Positions 51,183 through 57,705 of a stretch of 64,000 bases of DNA are shown one piece after another. The translations under genes and the position numbers were made by a program. The stretch lies in contig NZ_JAFKID010000014.1 in NCBI RefSeq assembly GCF_017306545.1, positions 1-64,000 of the forward strand, in the 5' to 3' direction. The notes beneath the pieces are model-generated. The model made no database searches, was not told where the DNA came from, and saw nothing but the letters and a program-made list of their open reading frames with translations. Each line of letters opens with the position of its first letter. Positions within the stretch are counted from its first letter, which is position 1. This DNA is from Mesorhizobium sp. Its GTDB lineage: Bacteria; Pseudomonadota; Alphaproteobacteria; Rhizobiales; Rhizobiaceae.

Positions 51183-51473
51183 ATGTCTTTCTTCAAGCGT
51201 CTTTTCGGCGGCGGCCCGGCCGAGAGCATCGAAACAGCGGCCAAGCCGGTCAGGCAGGTCGAGCACAAGGGCTTCGTCGTCGTCGCCACGCCCTATAAGG
51301 CGGAGGGCCAATACCAGACATGCGGCATCGTCTCCAAGGTGATCGACGGCGAGACGAAGGAGCACCGCTTCATTCGCGCCGACCGCTTTGCCGGGCTGGA
51401 CGATGCGGCCGACATCGCCATCAAGAAGGGCATCCAGCTTATCGACGAGCAGGGCGAGCGGATTTTCAGCTGA
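51183..51473 (+). CDS. HlyU family protein
   Basis: The 96-residue protein has the HlyU-domain pattern: [11 protein letters not shown] start, then [42 protein letters not shown] and a terminal helix [23 protein letters not shown]. In vibrios HlyU is a virulence regulator, but this domain family is broader and a regulatory role here is unproven. AAGGAG precedes the ATG at 51183. A glyoxalase remnant starts directly after the stop. Confidence 0.85.
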
Positions 51474-51474
51474 C

Positions 51475-51612
51475 CGGCTGCGCGACGAACCGTTCGGGCA
51501 GCGCCATTTCATCACCCGCGATCCGAACGGCGTGCCGATCGACGTCATCAAGCCGATCCCGCCGAGCGCCGAATTCCTGGCGCAATACGCCCCGGAGGCG
51601 GTCGCGCCCTGA
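51475..51612 (+). pseudogene. C-terminal remnant of a glyoxalase/VOC family protein
   Basis: Forty-five codons encode [20 protein letters not shown], then [20 protein letters not shown] and a short tail before a stop. This is the end of a vicinal-oxygen-chelate (glyoxalase) domain, with the typical DPNG turn and IDVI strand. The N-terminal two thirds are missing: the sequence upstream belongs to the HlyU gene in another frame. No start codon or ribosome site is present, so it is a truncated pseudogene. Confidence 0.75.
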
Positions 51613-51615
51613 CCG

Positions 51616-52575
51616 TCAGGGACGAGCGGCTGGCGTCAACGCGATCTGGACGACGCCTGAACGCCGCACCACCGTGCAGGCCGTTTCCCGGCCGATCCGC
51701 TCGCCGTCCAGCAGCCGCACGAGATCGTCAACCCCGGCGACCGCGCGGCCGTCTATGGCGACGACGATGTCGCCCTCCTTCAGTCCGGCTTTGGCGGCCG
51801 GGCTTGCCGGCTCGATGGAGCGCAGCCGCACGGCCGTGCCGCTCGCCACCTGCGCCGTCAGCGCCGCGCGCCGGGGCAGGACGACGGTGTCGGCCGACAC
51901 GCCGATGAAGGCGCGCCGCACGCGGCCAAAGCGGATGATCTCGGAAATGACGAAACTCGCCGTATTGGCGGCGATGGCGAAGGCAATGCCCTGAGCGCCG
52001 CGGATGACGGCGGTGTTGACGCCGATCACCTCGCCGGCCGACGACACCAGCGGTCCGCCCGAATTGCCGGGATTGAGGGCCGCGTCCGTCTGCACCACGT
52101 CATCGATCAGCCGGCCGTTTGCAGCGCGCATCGAGCGGCCGAGAGCCGAGACGACGCCGGCCGTCACGGTCCATTCGAAGCCGAGCGGATTGCCGATGGC
52201 GACGGCGATCTGGCCGCGCCGCAGGCGCCCCGAATCGCCCAGCGGCGCAATGTGCGGGAAATGCCCGTCGGCGCGTACCAGGGCGATGTCGGTGTCGGGA
52301 TCGCGGCCAAGCACGCGGCCTTCGCCGGCCGTACCGTCCGGCATCGCGACCCTCACGGTGCGCGCATCGCCGACGACGTGGTGATTGGTCACGACGAGCC
52401 CGTCCGGCGCGATGACGAAGCCGGACCCCTGGCCAGCGACCCTCTTGCCGTCCGCCGCCTGCTCGATGCGGCAGACGGCGGGGCCGATCCGGTCGACGGC
52501 ATCGGCGACCGTGGTGGAATAGGCGTCGAGCAGCGCCTGATCGTGCTGCCGGTCTGCGGGCTGGGGCAGGGCCAT
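51616..52575 (-). CDS. Trypsin-like serine protease with PDZ domain (HtrA/S1C family)
   Basis: The 319-residue protease has an intact catalytic triad: His66 (TNHHVV), Asp96 (DPDTDIALV) and Ser172 (NPGNSGGPL). A PDZ domain follows (about 225-315: SPAAKAGLKEGDIVVAIDGRAV). No signal peptide is visible, so it may act in the cytoplasm or leave by an unknown route, unlike DegP. It is divergent from a paralogue that has lost the triad, across a 213-bp promoter region. The arrangement suggests a shared regulatory circuit. Confidence 0.9.
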   Translation of the reverse strand: MALPQPADRQHDQALLDAYSTTVADAVDRIGPAVCRIEQAADGKRVAGQGSGFVIAPDGLVVTNHHVVGDARTVRVAMPDGTAGEGRVLGRDPDTDIALVRADGHFPHIAPLGDSGRLRRGQIAVAIGNPLGFEWTVTAGVVSALGRSMRAANGRLIDDVVQTDAALNPGNSGGPLVSSAGEVIGVNTAVIRGAQGIAFAIAANTASFVISEIIRFGRVRRAFIGVSADTVVLPRRAALTAQVASGTAVRLRSIEPASPAAKAGLKEGDIVVAIDGRAVAGVDDLVRLLDGERIGRETACTVVRRSGVVQIALTPAARP

Positions 52576-52788
52576 ATGCGGGCTCCGTGAAGATGGCGAA
52601 GGCGATGCCTATATGTGCGGGGCGCGGCGTTCGGCGGCGACCTCGCCGGATGGCCAGTGCAGACCATCCCTAGCCGTCAGGCGAGTGGGAAGTGCTGCGG
52701 CTATCGGCCATATCCGGCGCAGGGAGCGCGGTTCAGCCGGACGCTCCGGTCCGTTCCGGCCATACGGCCGACAGCCGAGGAGACAAAC

Positions 52789-53661
52789 ATGAGCGATTTC
52801 GATCTCTGCGCATTTTCCGATGCGGTTGCCGCCGTCGCGGAAGCCGTGGCGCCCTTGACAGCCAGCGTCCCTTCTCCGCGTGGCCGCACGGCCACCGCCT
52901 TCCACTGGGGCGACGGCCTTTACGTCGCCGCCGAGGAGGTGATCGACCCCGATGCCGTGCAGCATCTGACGCTGCCGTCTGGCGAGACGGTGGCGGCTGA
53001 GCTTCTCGGCCGCGATCCGTCCACCGGCGTCGCGTTGCTCAAGCCGGCCGTTGCCACGAATCTGCCCGTCATGGCCAAAGCGGAAGCGGTCCGGTCGGGC
53101 CATATGGCGATTGCCGCCGGCCGGTCCGGCCCGACGCCGCTTGCCGTGCTGGGCACGGTGGGCGAGGTCGGGCCCTCCTGGCGCTCGCTGCGCGGCGGGG
53201 TCATCGACCGCCGCATCAATCTGGCGATCCTCGCCGGCGGCCGCTTCGAGGGCGGTCCGGTGCTGGATGCCAAGGGCGCGCTGGTCGGCATGCTGCTGTT
53301 CGGTCCGCAGCGCCGCGCGCTTGTCATTCCTTATGAGACGATTGAGCGGGCGGTGGCCACGCTGCGGGAGAAAGGCGGCGTCATGCGCGGCTATCTCGGC
53401 GCCGGCCTGCATCCGATCCGCGATACGGCCGTGTCGGGCGCCATTGTCATGAGCCTGGATGACGAAGGACCTGCCAAGGCGGCCGGGATCATGCTGGGCG
53501 ACATCGTCACCGGCTGGAACGGCGAGGCGGTGCGCGGTCCGCGCGAACTGATCCGCAAGCTCGGCCCCGACAGCGCCGGCGCGGCCGTCACGCTCACCGT
53601 GCTGCGCGCCGGCGAAGCGCGCGAGGTTCCGCTGATGGTCGGCGAAAAGCCGCTGGGCTGA
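52789..53661 (+). CDS. S1C-family pseudoprotease with PDZ domain
   Basis: The 290-residue protein aligns along its length with HtrA-type proteases but lacks every catalytic residue. The His position is Glu50 (YVAAEEVI), the Asp position Gly80 (DPSTGVALL) and the Ser position Glu154 (GRFEGGPVLD). The surrounding framework (GRDPST, EGGPVLDAKGALVGML) and the PDZ domain (about 190-285: GPAKAAGIMLGDIVTGWNGEAV) are kept. This suggests a peptide-binding or regulatory role. GAGGAG precedes the ATG at 52789. A LuxR-type regulator starts 5 bp after its stop and is co-transcribed; the active protease paralogue is divergent. Confidence 0.88.
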   Translation: MSDFDLCAFSDAVAAVAEAVAPLTASVPSPRGRTATAFHWGDGLYVAAEEVIDPDAVQHLTLPSGETVAAELLGRDPSTGVALLKPAVATNLPVMAKAEAVRSGHMAIAAGRSGPTPLAVLGTVGEVGPSWRSLRGGVIDRRINLAILAGGRFEGGPVLDAKGALVGMLLFGPQRRALVIPYETIERAVATLREKGGVMRGYLGAGLHPIRDTAVSGAIVMSLDDEGPAKAAGIMLGDIVTGWNGEAVRGPRELIRKLGPDSAGAAVTLTVLRAGEAREVPLMVGEKPLG

Positions 53662-53666
53662 CGACG

Positions 53667-54278
53667 ATGCTGGCGCGCAACGATATCGGGCAGAGGCTGC
53701 TGGTGCTGGTGTCGCTGGCCGATGTCGGCGCGGCGCGGCGCCTGTCGGCATCGCTGGCTAAGATGGACGATCTCGTCGCGGTCTACCCCGACGAACTGGA
53801 CGAGGGCGAGCACGCCGACGTCCTCGTGGCCGACCGGGTTGGCGCTGCCGCCGTTGCGCCGGGCACGCCGCTGGTGCTGCTTTCCGGCGAAGAAGGCGGG
53901 GACGACAAAGTTTCGGCCGAAGCGGTCCTCGCGCCGGACGCGGCGCCTGCGCTGGTCGTCTCGGCGATCAGGCTGGCGGCGGCGGGCTATCGCATAAGGT
54001 CGGGCGAAGATGACAGGCAGGCGGTTCTTGCCGATGCGGACGATGGGCGCGTCCTCGTGGAAGATCCCGTTCCCGCTGCCGTCCATCTATCGCCGCGCGA
54101 GGCGCAGGTTCTGGCGCTGCTGGCCGAGGGGGCGCCGAACAAGGTCATCGCTCGGCGGCTCGACATTTCGGTCCATACGGCGAAATTCCATGTCGCCGCC
54201 ATTTTGGTGAAACTGGAAGCCGCCAACCGCACCGACGCCATCGCTACCGCCATGCGGCAGGGACTGGTGCTGGTGTAG
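53667..54278 (+). CDS. LuxR-type regulator with degenerate receiver domain
   Basis: The 203-residue protein has a C-terminal LuxR HTH (about 140-200: LSPREAQVLALLAEGAPNKVIARRLDISVHTAKFHVAAILVKLEAANRTDA). The N-terminal half has receiver-like secondary structure. An Asp remains at the usual phosphorylation strand (DVLVADRVG), but the acidic pair that binds magnesium is gone (LVLVSLADVG replaces the VDDH-type motif). Phosphorylation control is therefore doubtful. It lies 5 bp after the pseudoprotease gene, so the pseudoprotease may sense a signal and act through this regulator. Confidence 0.88.
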   Translation: MLARNDIGQRLLVLVSLADVGAARRLSASLAKMDDLVAVYPDELDEGEHADVLVADRVGAAAVAPGTPLVLLSGEEGGDDKVSAEAVLAPDAAPALVVSAIRLAAAGYRIRSGEDDRQAVLADADDGRVLVEDPVPAAVHLSPREAQVLALLAEGAPNKVIARRLDISVHTAKFHVAAILVKLEAANRTDAIATAMRQGLVLV

Positions 54279-54372: not shown

Positions 54373-55239
54373 ATGTCGCTCAATGGCAAGACGCTGTTCA
54401 TCTCGGGAGGATCGCGCGGCATCGGCCTGGCGATCGCCCTGCGTGCCGCACGGGACGGCGCCAACGTCACCATCGCCGCCAAGACGGCCGAGCCGCATCC
54501 CAAGCTGCCGGGCACGATCTATACGGCAGCCGAGGAGATCGAAAAGGCCGGCGGCAAGGCGCTGCCGGTGCTGTGCGACATCCGCGAGGAGGGACAGGTG
54601 GCCGCCGCCGTTGCCGCTACGGTCGAAAAATTCGGCGGCATCGACATCTGCGTCAACAACGCTTCCGCCATCCAGCTTACCGGTACGCTGGAAACCGACA
54701 TGAAGCGCTACGATCTGATGCACCACATCAACACGCGCGGCACCTTCCTCGTTTCCAAGACCTGCATTCCGCATCTGAAATCGGCGAAAAACCCGCATAT
54801 CCTCAACCTGGCGCCGCCGCTCGACATGGAAGCCAAGTGGTTCAAGAACCACGTCGCCTACACGATGGCGAAGTTCGGCATGTCGATGTGCACGCTGGGC
54901 ATGAGCGCCGAGTTCGCCAAAGCCGGCATCGCCGTCAACTCGCTGTGGCCGCTGACGGCGATCGACACGTCGGCCGTGCGCAACCTGCTCGGCGGCGAGA
55001 CGGTCGCCTCGATGAGCCGCTTACCCGCCATCATGGCCGACGCCGCCTATGCCATCTTCAACCGGCCGTCGCGTGAGGCGACCGGCAATTTCTACATCGA
55101 CGAGGAAGTGCTGCGGGCCGAGGGCGTTACCGACTTCTCGGCCTATGCGCCGGGCGCCAAGGGGCCGCTCGCCGGCGATTTCTTCGTTCCCGACGAGGTG
55201 TTCCAGCGCACCGACACAAAAGTCGGCAGCCTGCTCTGA
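54373..55239 (+). CDS. Short-chain dehydrogenase/reductase, HSDL2-like
   Basis: The 288-residue SDR resembles human hydroxysteroid dehydrogenase-like 2 over its whole length. It has the cofactor motif GGSRGIG (12-18), NNAS (95-98) and the catalytic YTMAK (Tyr163, Lys167). The canonical catalytic Ser position reads NLAPPLD, so it is Ala147 where HSDL2 has Ser (NISPPLN). The C-terminal segment TGNFYIDEEVLRAEGV is also conserved. An NAD(P)H-dependent lipid or fatty-acid role is plausible by family. GGAG sits 8 bases before the ATG. A hairpin-rich region follows. Confidence 0.9.
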   Translation: MSLNGKTLFISGGSRGIGLAIALRAARDGANVTIAAKTAEPHPKLPGTIYTAAEEIEKAGGKALPVLCDIREEGQVAAAVAATVEKFGGIDICVNNASAIQLTGTLETDMKRYDLMHHINTRGTFLVSKTCIPHLKSAKNPHILNLAPPLDMEAKWFKNHVAYTMAKFGMSMCTLGMSAEFAKAGIAVNSLWPLTAIDTSAVRNLLGGETVASMSRLPAIMADAAYAIFNRPSREATGNFYIDEEVLRAEGVTDFSAYAPGAKGPLAGDFFVPDEVFQRTDTKVGSLL

Positions 55240-55443: not shown

Positions 55444-57705
55444 CTATTTCGCCGAAGCGACCGGCGCCACCAGCGGCGTGATGCGGCGGACGGCGACGCG
55501 CCGGTTCTCGCGATTCGCACCTTCGGTGTTCACCTTCAGGTAGCGCTCGCCGTAGCCCTGGGTCGTCAGGTTCTCGGCCGGGATGTTGAAGACGGTGGTC
55601 AGCGCCTCGGCGACCGACTGCGCCCGTTCGTCCGAAAGCACCAGGTTGGACTCGTCCGACCCCACCGCATCCGTATGGCCTTCGATAAGGAAGGTCTCGG
55701 CGGGGTTCTGCTTCAGGATCTTGTTGATCGCGTCGCCGAGCGCCTGAAGATGGTTCACCTGATCCTCGCCGATCTCGGCCGAGCCGGTGTCGAAGGTGAT
55801 CGTATCGAGGTCCACGCGGCGCACCTTGTCGCGGATGCGGGCCGAATGCACCACTTCGTCGATCGAGTAGATGCGCTCCACCGGCTCGACGGGCGGCGCG
55901 TCGAGATAGGTGTAGTAGTCGTCCGGCTCGGCATATTGCGCGTCGAGAATGTACTGGTCGGCCGGAATGTCGAGCCTCAGCGGCGGCAAGTCGGCGCCTG
56001 CGTCGTAGTAGCCGCTCCTCAGGTCACGATAGTCGGATTCCGGCACGTAGTAGAGCACCACCTCGCGGTTGTCCGGCATGATGCGCGAGCGGCGCACGAT
56101 ATCGCCGTACGAATTGCGGATGGTGACGACGCGCGTGCCGTCGTCCTTGACGATGGTGTAGCGGCTGAAATCGTCCGGCAGTTCCTCGACATAGGAATCG
56201 CGGGCGCCGCGTTCCAGCCGGTCGTTGCGGCCGCGGTTGTCGACATAGATGGTGTCGCCTTCCTTGACGATGATCCGGTTGTCGATTTCCTTGACCACCT
56301 GGGCGTCGTTGCGGCTGCGCTGCTCCTCACGCCGCTTGTCCCACTGCTTTTGCCACTGGTTGCGGTCGATGCGCTTGCCTTCCACCGATTCGACCGATTC
56401 GATTCTGCCGATCCTGCCGATGTCGGTCTGCGCGGCCGAATCCGAAGCCGGCACCGCTTCGGCCTTGCCGGTTGCCTCGCCGGCCGGCGGTTGCTGGCTC
56501 TGCTGCCGGCCGGCCTGAGGCGCTTCGCCGGACGGTTTGCCGTTGGCGCCCTCGGTCTGTCCCTGCGCCGGCTGGGCTGCGCCGGCGGCCTTGGCGCTGT
56601 CGGGCAGCGGCGCGGCGTCCTTGGGCAGCGGCCTGGCTTCGGCTTTGCCTTTCGGCATGGCCTGCTCGCGGGTGTTGGTGGGAAGCACCGGCTCGCCCGC
56701 CGGCTTTGCCTGGCCCTCGGTCTGTTCGCCCTGGGCCGGCTGCTGCGTGGCTTCCGCAGGCTTCTGGCCGTTCGCCGGCTGCTCGGCCTGAGACTTCGCC
56801 TGCTCGCCGGGCTGCTGGCCTTCCTCTGCGGGTTTCGTCCTTCCGGTCTGCTGCTCCTCTGTCGGAGTTGCCTCGCCGCCTTGCTTTTTCTTCTTCAAAT
56901 AATCGCGCAGCTTTTCCTGTTTCGATTTCGGCTCGCCGGTCTGCTCTGGCGGCTGCTCGCTCTGGGCCGGCGGCTGCGCGGCCTCGGCTGGCTTCTGCGC
57001 GGATTCGCCCTGGGCCGGTTTCGGCTCGGGTTTCGGGGCGGATTCTTCCGCCGGCTTGGCCTGCTCCGGCTGCTTTTCGGCGGGCGCCGCCTCGCCGTTC
57101 TGCTTCTTCTTCAGATAATTGCGCAGCTTTTCCTGCTTGGAGCCGGATTCGGTTCCCTGATCGGTCGGCTGTTCTGTACCCGAAGGTGCGGCCTCCGAAG
57201 GCGCCGGCTGCTCGGCCTGTTTCTGCTTCTCGTGCTTGCGCGGCTTCGGCTCAGGCTCGGCAGGCGCTGCCTCCTGCGCCGGAGCGGCATTGTTCTGTTC
57301 CCAGCTCTGGTGCTTCTTGCGCGGCTTCGGCTCAGGTTCGGCCGGTGCGGCCTGTTCGGCGGGCGCTGCCTCCTGAGCCGGAGCGGCGTTGTTCTGCTCC
57401 TCGCTCTGGTGCTTCTTGCGCGGCTTCTGCTCGGATTCGGCAGGCGCGGCCTGCTCGGCGGGAGCGGCGTTGTCCTGTTGCGCTTCGCCGCGACGCTTTT
57501 TGTGCTTGCCTTCGGGTGCCTCTTCGACGGTCGGGGCGCAGGTCTCGCCTTCGGGGCAATCGGCCTGCACGCGGACCAACGGCAGGCGTCCAGCCGTGTC
57601 CGCCGCGACGTTGGCCGGCATATTGAGGGGCATGGCGCCGAGCGGCGCGGATGCCATCAGCAGGGCGATCGCGCTGCCGGTCAGAATCCGTGGTTGGCGT
57701 TTCAT
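55444..57705 (-). CDS. OmpA family outer-membrane-associated protein with long repeat linker
   Basis: The 753-residue protein has a signal peptide (first 24 residues or so). A disordered region of roughly 400 residues follows, rich in Pro, Ala, Glu, Lys and Gln, with tandem units such as EPKPRKKHQ-EQNNAAPAQEAAPAE (about residues 90-160). Two or more copies of KQEKLRxYLKKK occur (about 190-275). The C-terminal OmpA/MotB domain (about 640-745) has FLIEGHTDAVGSDESNLVLSDERAQSVAEAL and GYGERYLKV for peptidoglycan binding. The linker could span the periplasm or tether the envelope. Repeat DNA at about 57050-57460 may vary in length between strains. Confidence 0.9.
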   Translation of the reverse strand: MKRQPRILTGSAIALLMASAPLGAMPLNMPANVAADTAGRLPLVRVQADCPEGETCAPTVEEAPEGKHKKRRGEAQQDNAAPAEQAAPAESEQKPRKKHQSEEQNNAAPAQEAAPAEQAAPAEPEPKPRKKHQSWEQNNAAPAQEAAPAEPEPKPRKHEKQKQAEQPAPSEAAPSGTEQPTDQGTESGSKQEKLRNYLKKKQNGEAAPAEKQPEQAKPAEESAPKPEPKPAQGESAQKPAEAAQPPAQSEQPPEQTGEPKSKQEKLRDYLKKKKQGGEATPTEEQQTGRTKPAEEGQQPGEQAKSQAEQPANGQKPAEATQQPAQGEQTEGQAKPAGEPVLPTNTREQAMPKGKAEARPLPKDAAPLPDSAKAAGAAQPAQGQTEGANGKPSGEAPQAGRQQSQQPPAGEATGKAEAVPASDSAAQTDIGRIGRIESVESVEGKRIDRNQWQKQWDKRREEQRSRNDAQVVKEIDNRIIVKEGDTIYVDNRGRNDRLERGARDSYVEELPDDFSRYTIVKDDGTRVVTIRNSYGDIVRRSRIMPDNREVVLYYVPESDYRDLRSGYYDAGADLPPLRLDIPADQYILDAQYAEPDDYYTYLDAPPVEPVERIYSIDEVVHSARIRDKVRRVDLDTITFDTGSAEIGEDQVNHLQALGDAINKILKQNPAETFLIEGHTDAVGSDESNLVLSDERAQSVAEALTTVFNIPAENLTTQGYGERYLKVNTEGANRENRRVAVRRITPLVAPVASAK

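Follow-up and report, generated by a model that had tools for sequence, protein, structure and literature searches.

An HtrA-type pseudoprotease kept with a receiver-decayed LuxR-type regulator in Mesorhizobium and related lineages: a candidate circuit around an active cytoplasmic-type protease

PDZ domains of HtrA enzymes bind C-terminal peptides, and periplasmic export is usual for bacterial HtrA/Deg members. In the DegS-RseA-sigmaE pathway, a PDZ-bearing HtrA sensor of the periplasm reads C-termini and, by cutting, alters the transcription of protease genes. Could a relative lacking the catalytic residues serve as a sensor as well? Dead relatives of proteases are as such not new, since a survey from 2008 counts 42 putative inactive members among 966 prokaryotic serine protease homologues (PMC2605481). 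This article describes one such protein, encoded in a 64,000-nucleotide stretch of Mesorhizobium sp. DNA (positions 1 to 64,000 of contig NZ_JAFKID010000014.1, assembly GCF_017306545.1; hereafter the window), where a pseudoprotease gene is followed by the gene of a LuxR-type regulator and diverges from an active protease gene. By computation, the cytoplasm-type HtrA pseudoprotease is kept with its receiver-decayed NarL/LuxR-type regulator in the loci examined, and a palindrome marks the promoter of this pair in two families, as well as the promoter of the active S1C protease in Mesorhizobium and in about half of the genomes of a second genus (g38, of family f35 in the same order, probably Bradyrhizobium). 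A moderately probable reading is that of a small autoregulated circuit composed of the regulator, the pseudoprotease as its input subunit and the active protease as its output.

The closest precedent for the module is the couple formed by MamE and MamO. There too an active S1C enzyme and a dead relative lie in one region, and MamO promotes proteolysis without cutting (PMC4794232). These are however magnetosome proteins, MamO has a transporter domain and a di-histidine metal site, and the accessible part of that report pairs no transcription regulator with it (PMC4794232). The TauE-like transporter domain has no counterpart in the window pseudoprotease, whose 290 residues give Trypsin_2 and PDZ matches only. 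The regulator in turn resembles NarL/FixJ (LuxR-type) pseudo-receiver regulators in its receiver-like N-domain and GerE helix-turn-helix, but its gene is codirectional with that of an HtrA pseudoprotease a few bases away, and its g38 counterparts have an N-domain of about 55 residues. Unlike DegS, the candidate sensor of the window should not cut and appears cytoplasmic. The LypABC and CARD-NLR systems likewise contain trypsin-like peptidase domains, which the accessible part of their description aligns with Deg enzymes (PMC13236601), but no CARD, NLR or ATPase gene was seen among the window neighbours looked at. No description of a pseudoprotease-regulator module was found in searches of open-access literature, preprints and most subscription journals being outside this scope. 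What appears to be new here is the operator-like palindrome that would link the promoter of the pair with that of the active protease.

An earlier, sequence-only reading of the window had set out the three-gene layout of Table 1, and its coordinates, strands and lengths are all correct, as is the 5-bp gap between pseudoprotease and regulator genes on one strand, with the active protease gene divergent. It had also named the catalytic replacements: in a pairwise alignment, E50, G80 and E154 of the pseudoprotease indeed fall on H66, D96 and S172 of the active enzyme. Fold and PDZ domain are retained as proposed, Pfam Trypsin_2 and PDZ being found in both proteases, with a protease-domain match much weaker in the pseudoprotease (8.5e-11) than in the active enzyme (4.6e-34). 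The active protease belongs to the HtrA/Deg type (MEROPS S1C) by its Trypsin_2 match, by PDZ_6 at 5.7e-12, and by H/D/S in 80/80 sequences; counts of this kind cover the window sequence and its named relatives (81 pseudoproteases, 80 active proteases). E/G/E is fixed at the three replaced positions in 81/81 Mesorhizobium-type pseudoproteases, and these proteins should be unable to cut. Their HtrA fold is indicated by sequence matches to DegP-type chains and, from a weak model, by Foldseek matches to HtrA structures. Within the RGYLG motif of the PDZ domain, G201, Y202, L203 and G204 occur in 42/42 aligned pseudoproteases, and Y in 53/54 from g38. Seven HtrA-like places, query included, were found in the genome of the window at the search level used, and PADLOC matches the active protease to RT-Protease_XI and nacht models only, and the pseudoprotease to none.

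Table 1. Features of the pseudoprotease locus, in window coordinates
Feature	Position	Strand	Remarks
Active S1C (HtrA/Deg-type) serine protease with PDZ	51616..52575	-	319 aa; no evident signal peptide
Pseudoprotease, trypsin-like domain with E50/G80/E154 replacing H/D/S	52789..53661	+	290 aa
PDZ domain of pseudoprotease, residues 201-280, RGYLG motif kept	53389..53628	+	Pfam and alignment
NarL/LuxR-type regulator: pseudo-receiver-like N-domain and GerE helix-turn-helix	53667..54278	+	203 aa
GerE DNA-binding domain of regulator, residues 141-194	54087..54248	+	nearly invariant in Mesorhizobium
ATATGTGC element	52611..52618		in 80/80 intergenic sequences
Operator-like palindrome 1, CTCGCC-GGAT-GGCCAG	52642..52657		promoter pattern analysis
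Operator-like palindrome 2, CTAGCC-GTCA-GGCGAG	52670..52685		28 bp from palindrome 1, start to start

Both window proteases appear to be of the cytoplasmic type. In keeping with the absence of signal peptides noted earlier, neither has a stretch resembling a signal peptide by a crude measure of hydrophobicity. The highest 15-residue mean in the first 60 residues is 1.65 in the pseudoprotease and 0.81 in the active protease, against 1.8-2.5 in 11 of 12 HtrA control rows and 1.27 in the last; the measure overlaps at the edge, g38 pseudoproteases reaching 2.07. By this measure only, the N-terminus of the active protease is devoid of the hydrophobic stretch expected for periplasmic export.

The receiver of the regulator had been described as eroded, and it gives no match to Pfam Response_reg (PF00072) at E<1, while the GerE helix-turn-helix (PF00196) is found at 3.8e-17; among six relatives scanned, only the regulator from family f129 shows a PF00072 match, at 0.076. 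Its structure is predicted fairly to well (mean predicted local distance difference test score, pLDDT, of 82), with high confidence for the N-domain. A fold search brings ChrA, LiaR, NarL, FixJ and VpsT among the best ten, at full-length template modelling scores of 0.3-0.46 and with large root-mean-square deviations. Judged by eye, the residues of the phosphorylation pocket are incomplete, and no histidine kinase was seen among the neighbouring open reading frames looked at in the window. Over 38 regulators, the mean majority fraction is 0.97 in the helix-turn-helix vs 0.70 in the N-domain. Degeneration of the receiver, by profile or by eye, is seen in every lineage looked at: full-length yet degenerate in f129 and f108 (two other families), more degenerate in Mesorhizobium (g1), and nearly gone in g38, where the regulators read have only about 55-60 residues ahead of the helix-turn-helix. 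Shortened N-domains also occur outside g38, in loci L044 (genome G326, family f20; regulator of 126 aa) and L130 (a metagenome-assembled genome, MAG, of Rhizobiaceae; 132 aa), with uncertain starts; the receiver may have been lost more than once.

Whether the gene order extends beyond this strain had been set beforehand as the check on which the proposal should stand or fall. The module is kept across Mesorhizobium and, wholly or partly, in three other lineages, and its conservation in Mesorhizobium and g38 rules out a strain-specific oddity. The pseudoprotease is found in 33/37 genomes of the genus searched, the window's own included. A first set of 34 Mesorhizobium-type loci shows the divergent active gene and the downstream regulator in every case, the active gene being split in L015. 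Among 80 named loci, where the pseudoprotease is 64-73% identical, 79 have the regulator, 79 the active gene and 78 all three. The two misses are L062, where the 3.4-kb contig does not include the active gene, and L121, in which the regulator was missed by the search filter; L121 appears to be the same genome as L040, whose regulator is present in the first set. Pseudoprotease and regulator genes are separated by short gaps or overlap by 4 bp. The L062 contig (3,403 bp), whose title reads MAG: Bradyrhizobium sp. REEB70, is probably mis-binned; its pseudoprotease and regulator are of the Mesorhizobium type, and it is, at 73%, the best match to the window among the named loci. In genome G259 of family f20 (L037, L155, L253), a Mesorhizobium-type three-gene module (72% and 81%) stands beside a second active-protease relative at 58%; the module would be there by transfer or contamination.

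Outside Mesorhizobium the pair persists in other arrangements. In g38, the pseudoprotease occurs in 60/70 genomes; in four of them it is only 39-41% identical to the query, and in two it is fragmentary. Promoter and regulator counts rest on 54 of these 60 loci, leaving out two fragments, two loci near contig ends and two at 40-41% identity. A regulator match adjoins the pseudoprotease on the same strand in 54/54, and the replaced positions read E (53/54), D (53/54), and E, Q or H (27, 26 and 1 of 54). A class-wide search returned 158/385 genomes at E<=1e-35, most rows looking Deg-type by score and frame length; of seven loci examined, two were clear new members. The one in f108 (G384) has the regulator directly after the pseudoprotease on the same strand, with a regulator start that is not fixed, and by eye in the alignment reads E/D/E at the catalytic positions; none of six other f108 genomes searched has a pseudoprotease. 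In f129, the pseudoprotease is present in 5/8 genomes at E<=1e-45, all of one genus, and the order on one strand is regulator, pseudoprotease, active S1C protease, with the regulator in 5/5 loci. In L185, L188 and L189 the third gene has an intact frame. L187 appears to have a shortened one and L186 no intact one, while regulator and pseudoprotease stay open in both loci. The f129 member L167 reads D/G/F, again by eye in the alignment. When the whole phylum was searched with a profile, only g1 and g38 yielded pseudoproteases at E<=1e-46 (17/398 genomes), a threshold and sampling that can miss others.

The two proteases are not recent copies of one another. The pseudoprotease had been called a paralogue of the active enzyme, a term to be used with that qualification; they are only 27% identical, and in a tree of 43 proteins, rooted for drawing only, 15 pseudoproteases form one group (100/99) and 16 active enzymes, those of f129 included, another (97/91). 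These separate clades rule out a recent duplication of the neighbouring protease. Another S1C gene, on the divergent side in 4/8 f35-type loci (L142, L143, L146, L148), was rejected as a partner, being only 34-38% identical to the active protease; that of L143, the sole one of the four measured, has a hydrophobic N-terminus.

What could hold these genes together is the palindrome in their promoters. The 16-bp pattern CTNNCC-N4-GGNNAG is present in two copies 28 bp apart in 79/80 Mesorhizobium-type divergent promoters, and in one copy in the remaining promoter, when shuffled sequences hold 0.005 each. It also stands ahead of the pseudoprotease in 53/54 g38 loci, starting 59-90 bp upstream, and, by eye and with one mismatch, in the f108 member. 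A scan of all 8-letter patterns at 11 spacings, made without assuming a palindrome, gives it as the top shared pattern (0.93 of 81 Mesorhizobium-type and 0.98 of 54 g38 promoters). No other palindrome comes close to that level, and the next patterns include shifted forms of it. The recognition helix of the regulator reads by eye SVHT(A/V)KFHV where the palindrome is present, and AERTAKFHV in f129. We read the palindrome as the putative operator of the regulator, tying the genes into one circuit. Read on the minus strand, ATATGTGC could serve the active protease gene as its -10 region. Each palindrome lies, by eye, upstream of a possible -10 element, which would suit activation rather than repression. 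A wide regulon was considered and is ruled out, the places of the pattern CTVVCCNNNNGGCBAG in two genomes being mostly inside genes. The genome of the window holds 17, of which two are in the divergent promoter, 13 inside genes and 2 intergenic (with a crude gene caller), and G009 holds 25, again two in the divergent promoter, while 20 of its other 23 were fetched and comprise 18 inside genes and 2 intergenic. The neighbours of the intergenic sites suggest no common function, one of them in G000 being by eye a ribosomal protein L21-like gene.

The g38 genomes separate the active protease from the pair. Its closest relative is found in 67/70 of them, at places away from the pseudoprotease. Yet the exact palindrome lies upstream of this unlinked gene in 33/60 genomes that have the pseudoprotease vs 0/7 that do not (shuffles, 0.008 per sequence); an earlier set of 20 genomes, two of which recur in the later one, gave 5/9 vs 0/11. 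The 33 sites hardly vary at the half-site letters left free by the pattern (0-0.61 bits), as opposed to up to 1.84 bits in the spacer and averages of 1.36 bits in the right flank and 0.64 bits in the left. This is suggestive of palindrome-linked regulation, in trans, of the active protease of g38. The three-gene unit first proposed survives in part: the pseudoprotease-regulator pair and the palindrome are widely kept, but the active protease gene does not always lie beside them. That the promoters have a palindrome in common nevertheless supports the three genes as a functional unit more strongly than the layout first noticed could.

How would such a circuit work? The sequence-only reading had suggested a peptide-sensing switch, in which the active enzyme would make or remove a peptide, the inactive PDZ protein would bind it and the regulator would respond; conserved PDZ loop residues, the decayed receiver and the persistence of the pair give this indirect support. 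In the circuit proposed here, the regulator would bind the palindromes as a dimer and, given where they lie, could act as an activator; its own gene and those of both proteases would therefore come under joint control. The pseudoprotease would most likely be the input subunit, binding C-terminal peptides, as the known behaviour of HtrA PDZ domains would suggest, or unfolded substrates, and would hold or release the regulator in place of phosphorylation. Input through the pseudoprotease is the simplest reading because the receiver is degenerate in all lineages looked at while the pseudoprotease with its RGYLG motif stays. The amount of active cytoplasmic protease would in this way be matched to the substrate load. 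What the ligand would be, and whether its effect would be positive or negative, are the least certain parts.

Several observations weigh against this circuit. We infer from sequence both the binding of the regulator to the palindrome and its contact with the pseudoprotease, and the structure model of the latter, although closest in fold to HtrA enzymes, is too poor for any geometry to be read from it (pLDDT 67, and below 50 for residues 121-151). Ordinary synteny is also high in the genus, the downstream short-chain dehydrogenase/reductase (SDR) gene being kept in 72/76 Mesorhizobium-type loci, so that order alone proves little there and the argument rests on the other lineages. The pseudoprotease orthologue was not found in 10/70 g38 genomes, nor in 4/37 Mesorhizobium genomes (G006, G007, G013, G024), where the query matches only at the level of Deg proteases, and relatives of the active protease exist in genomes without it (e.g., G061, G220, G313, G327). 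The palindrome was not seen by eye in four stretches ahead of the f129 regulator, and genome-wide it is not enriched, being rarer than a reversed control. As for the unlinked active protease of g38, the Fisher p of 0.011 for its palindrome ignores relatedness, 27/60 pseudoprotease-positive genomes have no exact site ahead of it, and the left half-site appears to run into the end of the preceding gene, so that coding constraint may account for some of its conservation.

Three other explanations have to be weighed. The first, unlikely though the most serious of them, makes the pseudoprotease an allosteric partner of the active protease, with a regulator that merely keeps enzyme levels in step. 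It has its model in MamO, an HtrA-family pseudoprotease needed for MamE-dependent proteolysis without an active site of its own (PMC4794232), and it would fit the operator-like sites common to both protease genes and the single row of three genes in f129. It agrees less well with g38, where the pseudoprotease is joined to the regulator and not to the active gene, with the low identity and separate clades of the two enzymes, and above all with the fact that the constant part of the module is the pseudoprotease-regulator pair, not the enzyme couple. The second denies any functional link: neighbours would be held by general synteny, the pseudoprotease would be drifting to loss, and the palindrome would be unrelated to the regulator. 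The high synteny of the SDR gene, the genomes of both genera without an orthologue and the missing g38 sites speak for it, but we consider it improbable, as the pair recurs in separate lineages with differing layouts, the replaced residues and the PDZ motif are fixed, the palindrome is the best shared pattern of an unbiased scan, and the three genes persist in L063 and L064 of M. soli, where no SDR was found within 2.5 kb. Equally improbable is a small-ligand or metal sensor in which acidic residues at the triad form a new binding site controlling the regulator: about half of the g38 members and the f108 member do read E/D/E, and MamO is a known case of a protease scaffold turned metal binder, but the middle residue is Gly in all 81 Mesorhizobium sequences, L167 departs from the acidic pattern, Gln is often third in g38, the metal of MamO is bound elsewhere, via two histidines (PMC4794232), and the site model of the pseudoprotease is unreliable.

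Around the three genes, the window holds an SDR oxidoreductase gene (54373-55239, +), 94 bp past the regulator on the same strand, which in Mesorhizobium-type loci may belong to the unit as its fourth gene. Near the end of the active protease gene, on the opposite strand, lies a gene of the HlyU family (51183-51473, +), present in the fetched flanks of only 24/72 Mesorhizobium-type loci tested, and 51474-51612 resembles by eye the tail of a glyoxalase-like protein. Further on, an OmpA-family protein of 753 aa (55444-57705, -) has a long Pro/Glu/Gln-rich stretch; its gene contains a 99-bp tandem repeat (57255-57462, 2.1 copies), and the strand opposite is open over 723 codons.

Taken further, the circuit proposed here, that of regulator, pseudoprotease and active protease, leads to a tentative picture in which the dead protease would be a sensory subunit that reads peptides or unfolded proteins through its PDZ domain and cleft, and steers a regulator that is losing its receiver; via one conserved operator, acting in cis or in trans, this regulator would set how much working HtrA protease the cytoplasm contains. 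How the pseudo-receivers of bacteria are switched was called a mystery in a review of 2025, which discusses protein partners as one route of control (PMC12632262). To this question, now directly testable, the conserved pair offers a candidate answer in which the regulator has a partner of its own and a defined DNA site. Beside MamO, the pseudoprotease would be another candidate for an HtrA relative retained for something other than catalysis, and the whole a circuit that may control a set of HtrA enzymes with no evident signal peptide. If true, it would be a feedback on proteolysis load built on a pseudoenzyme.

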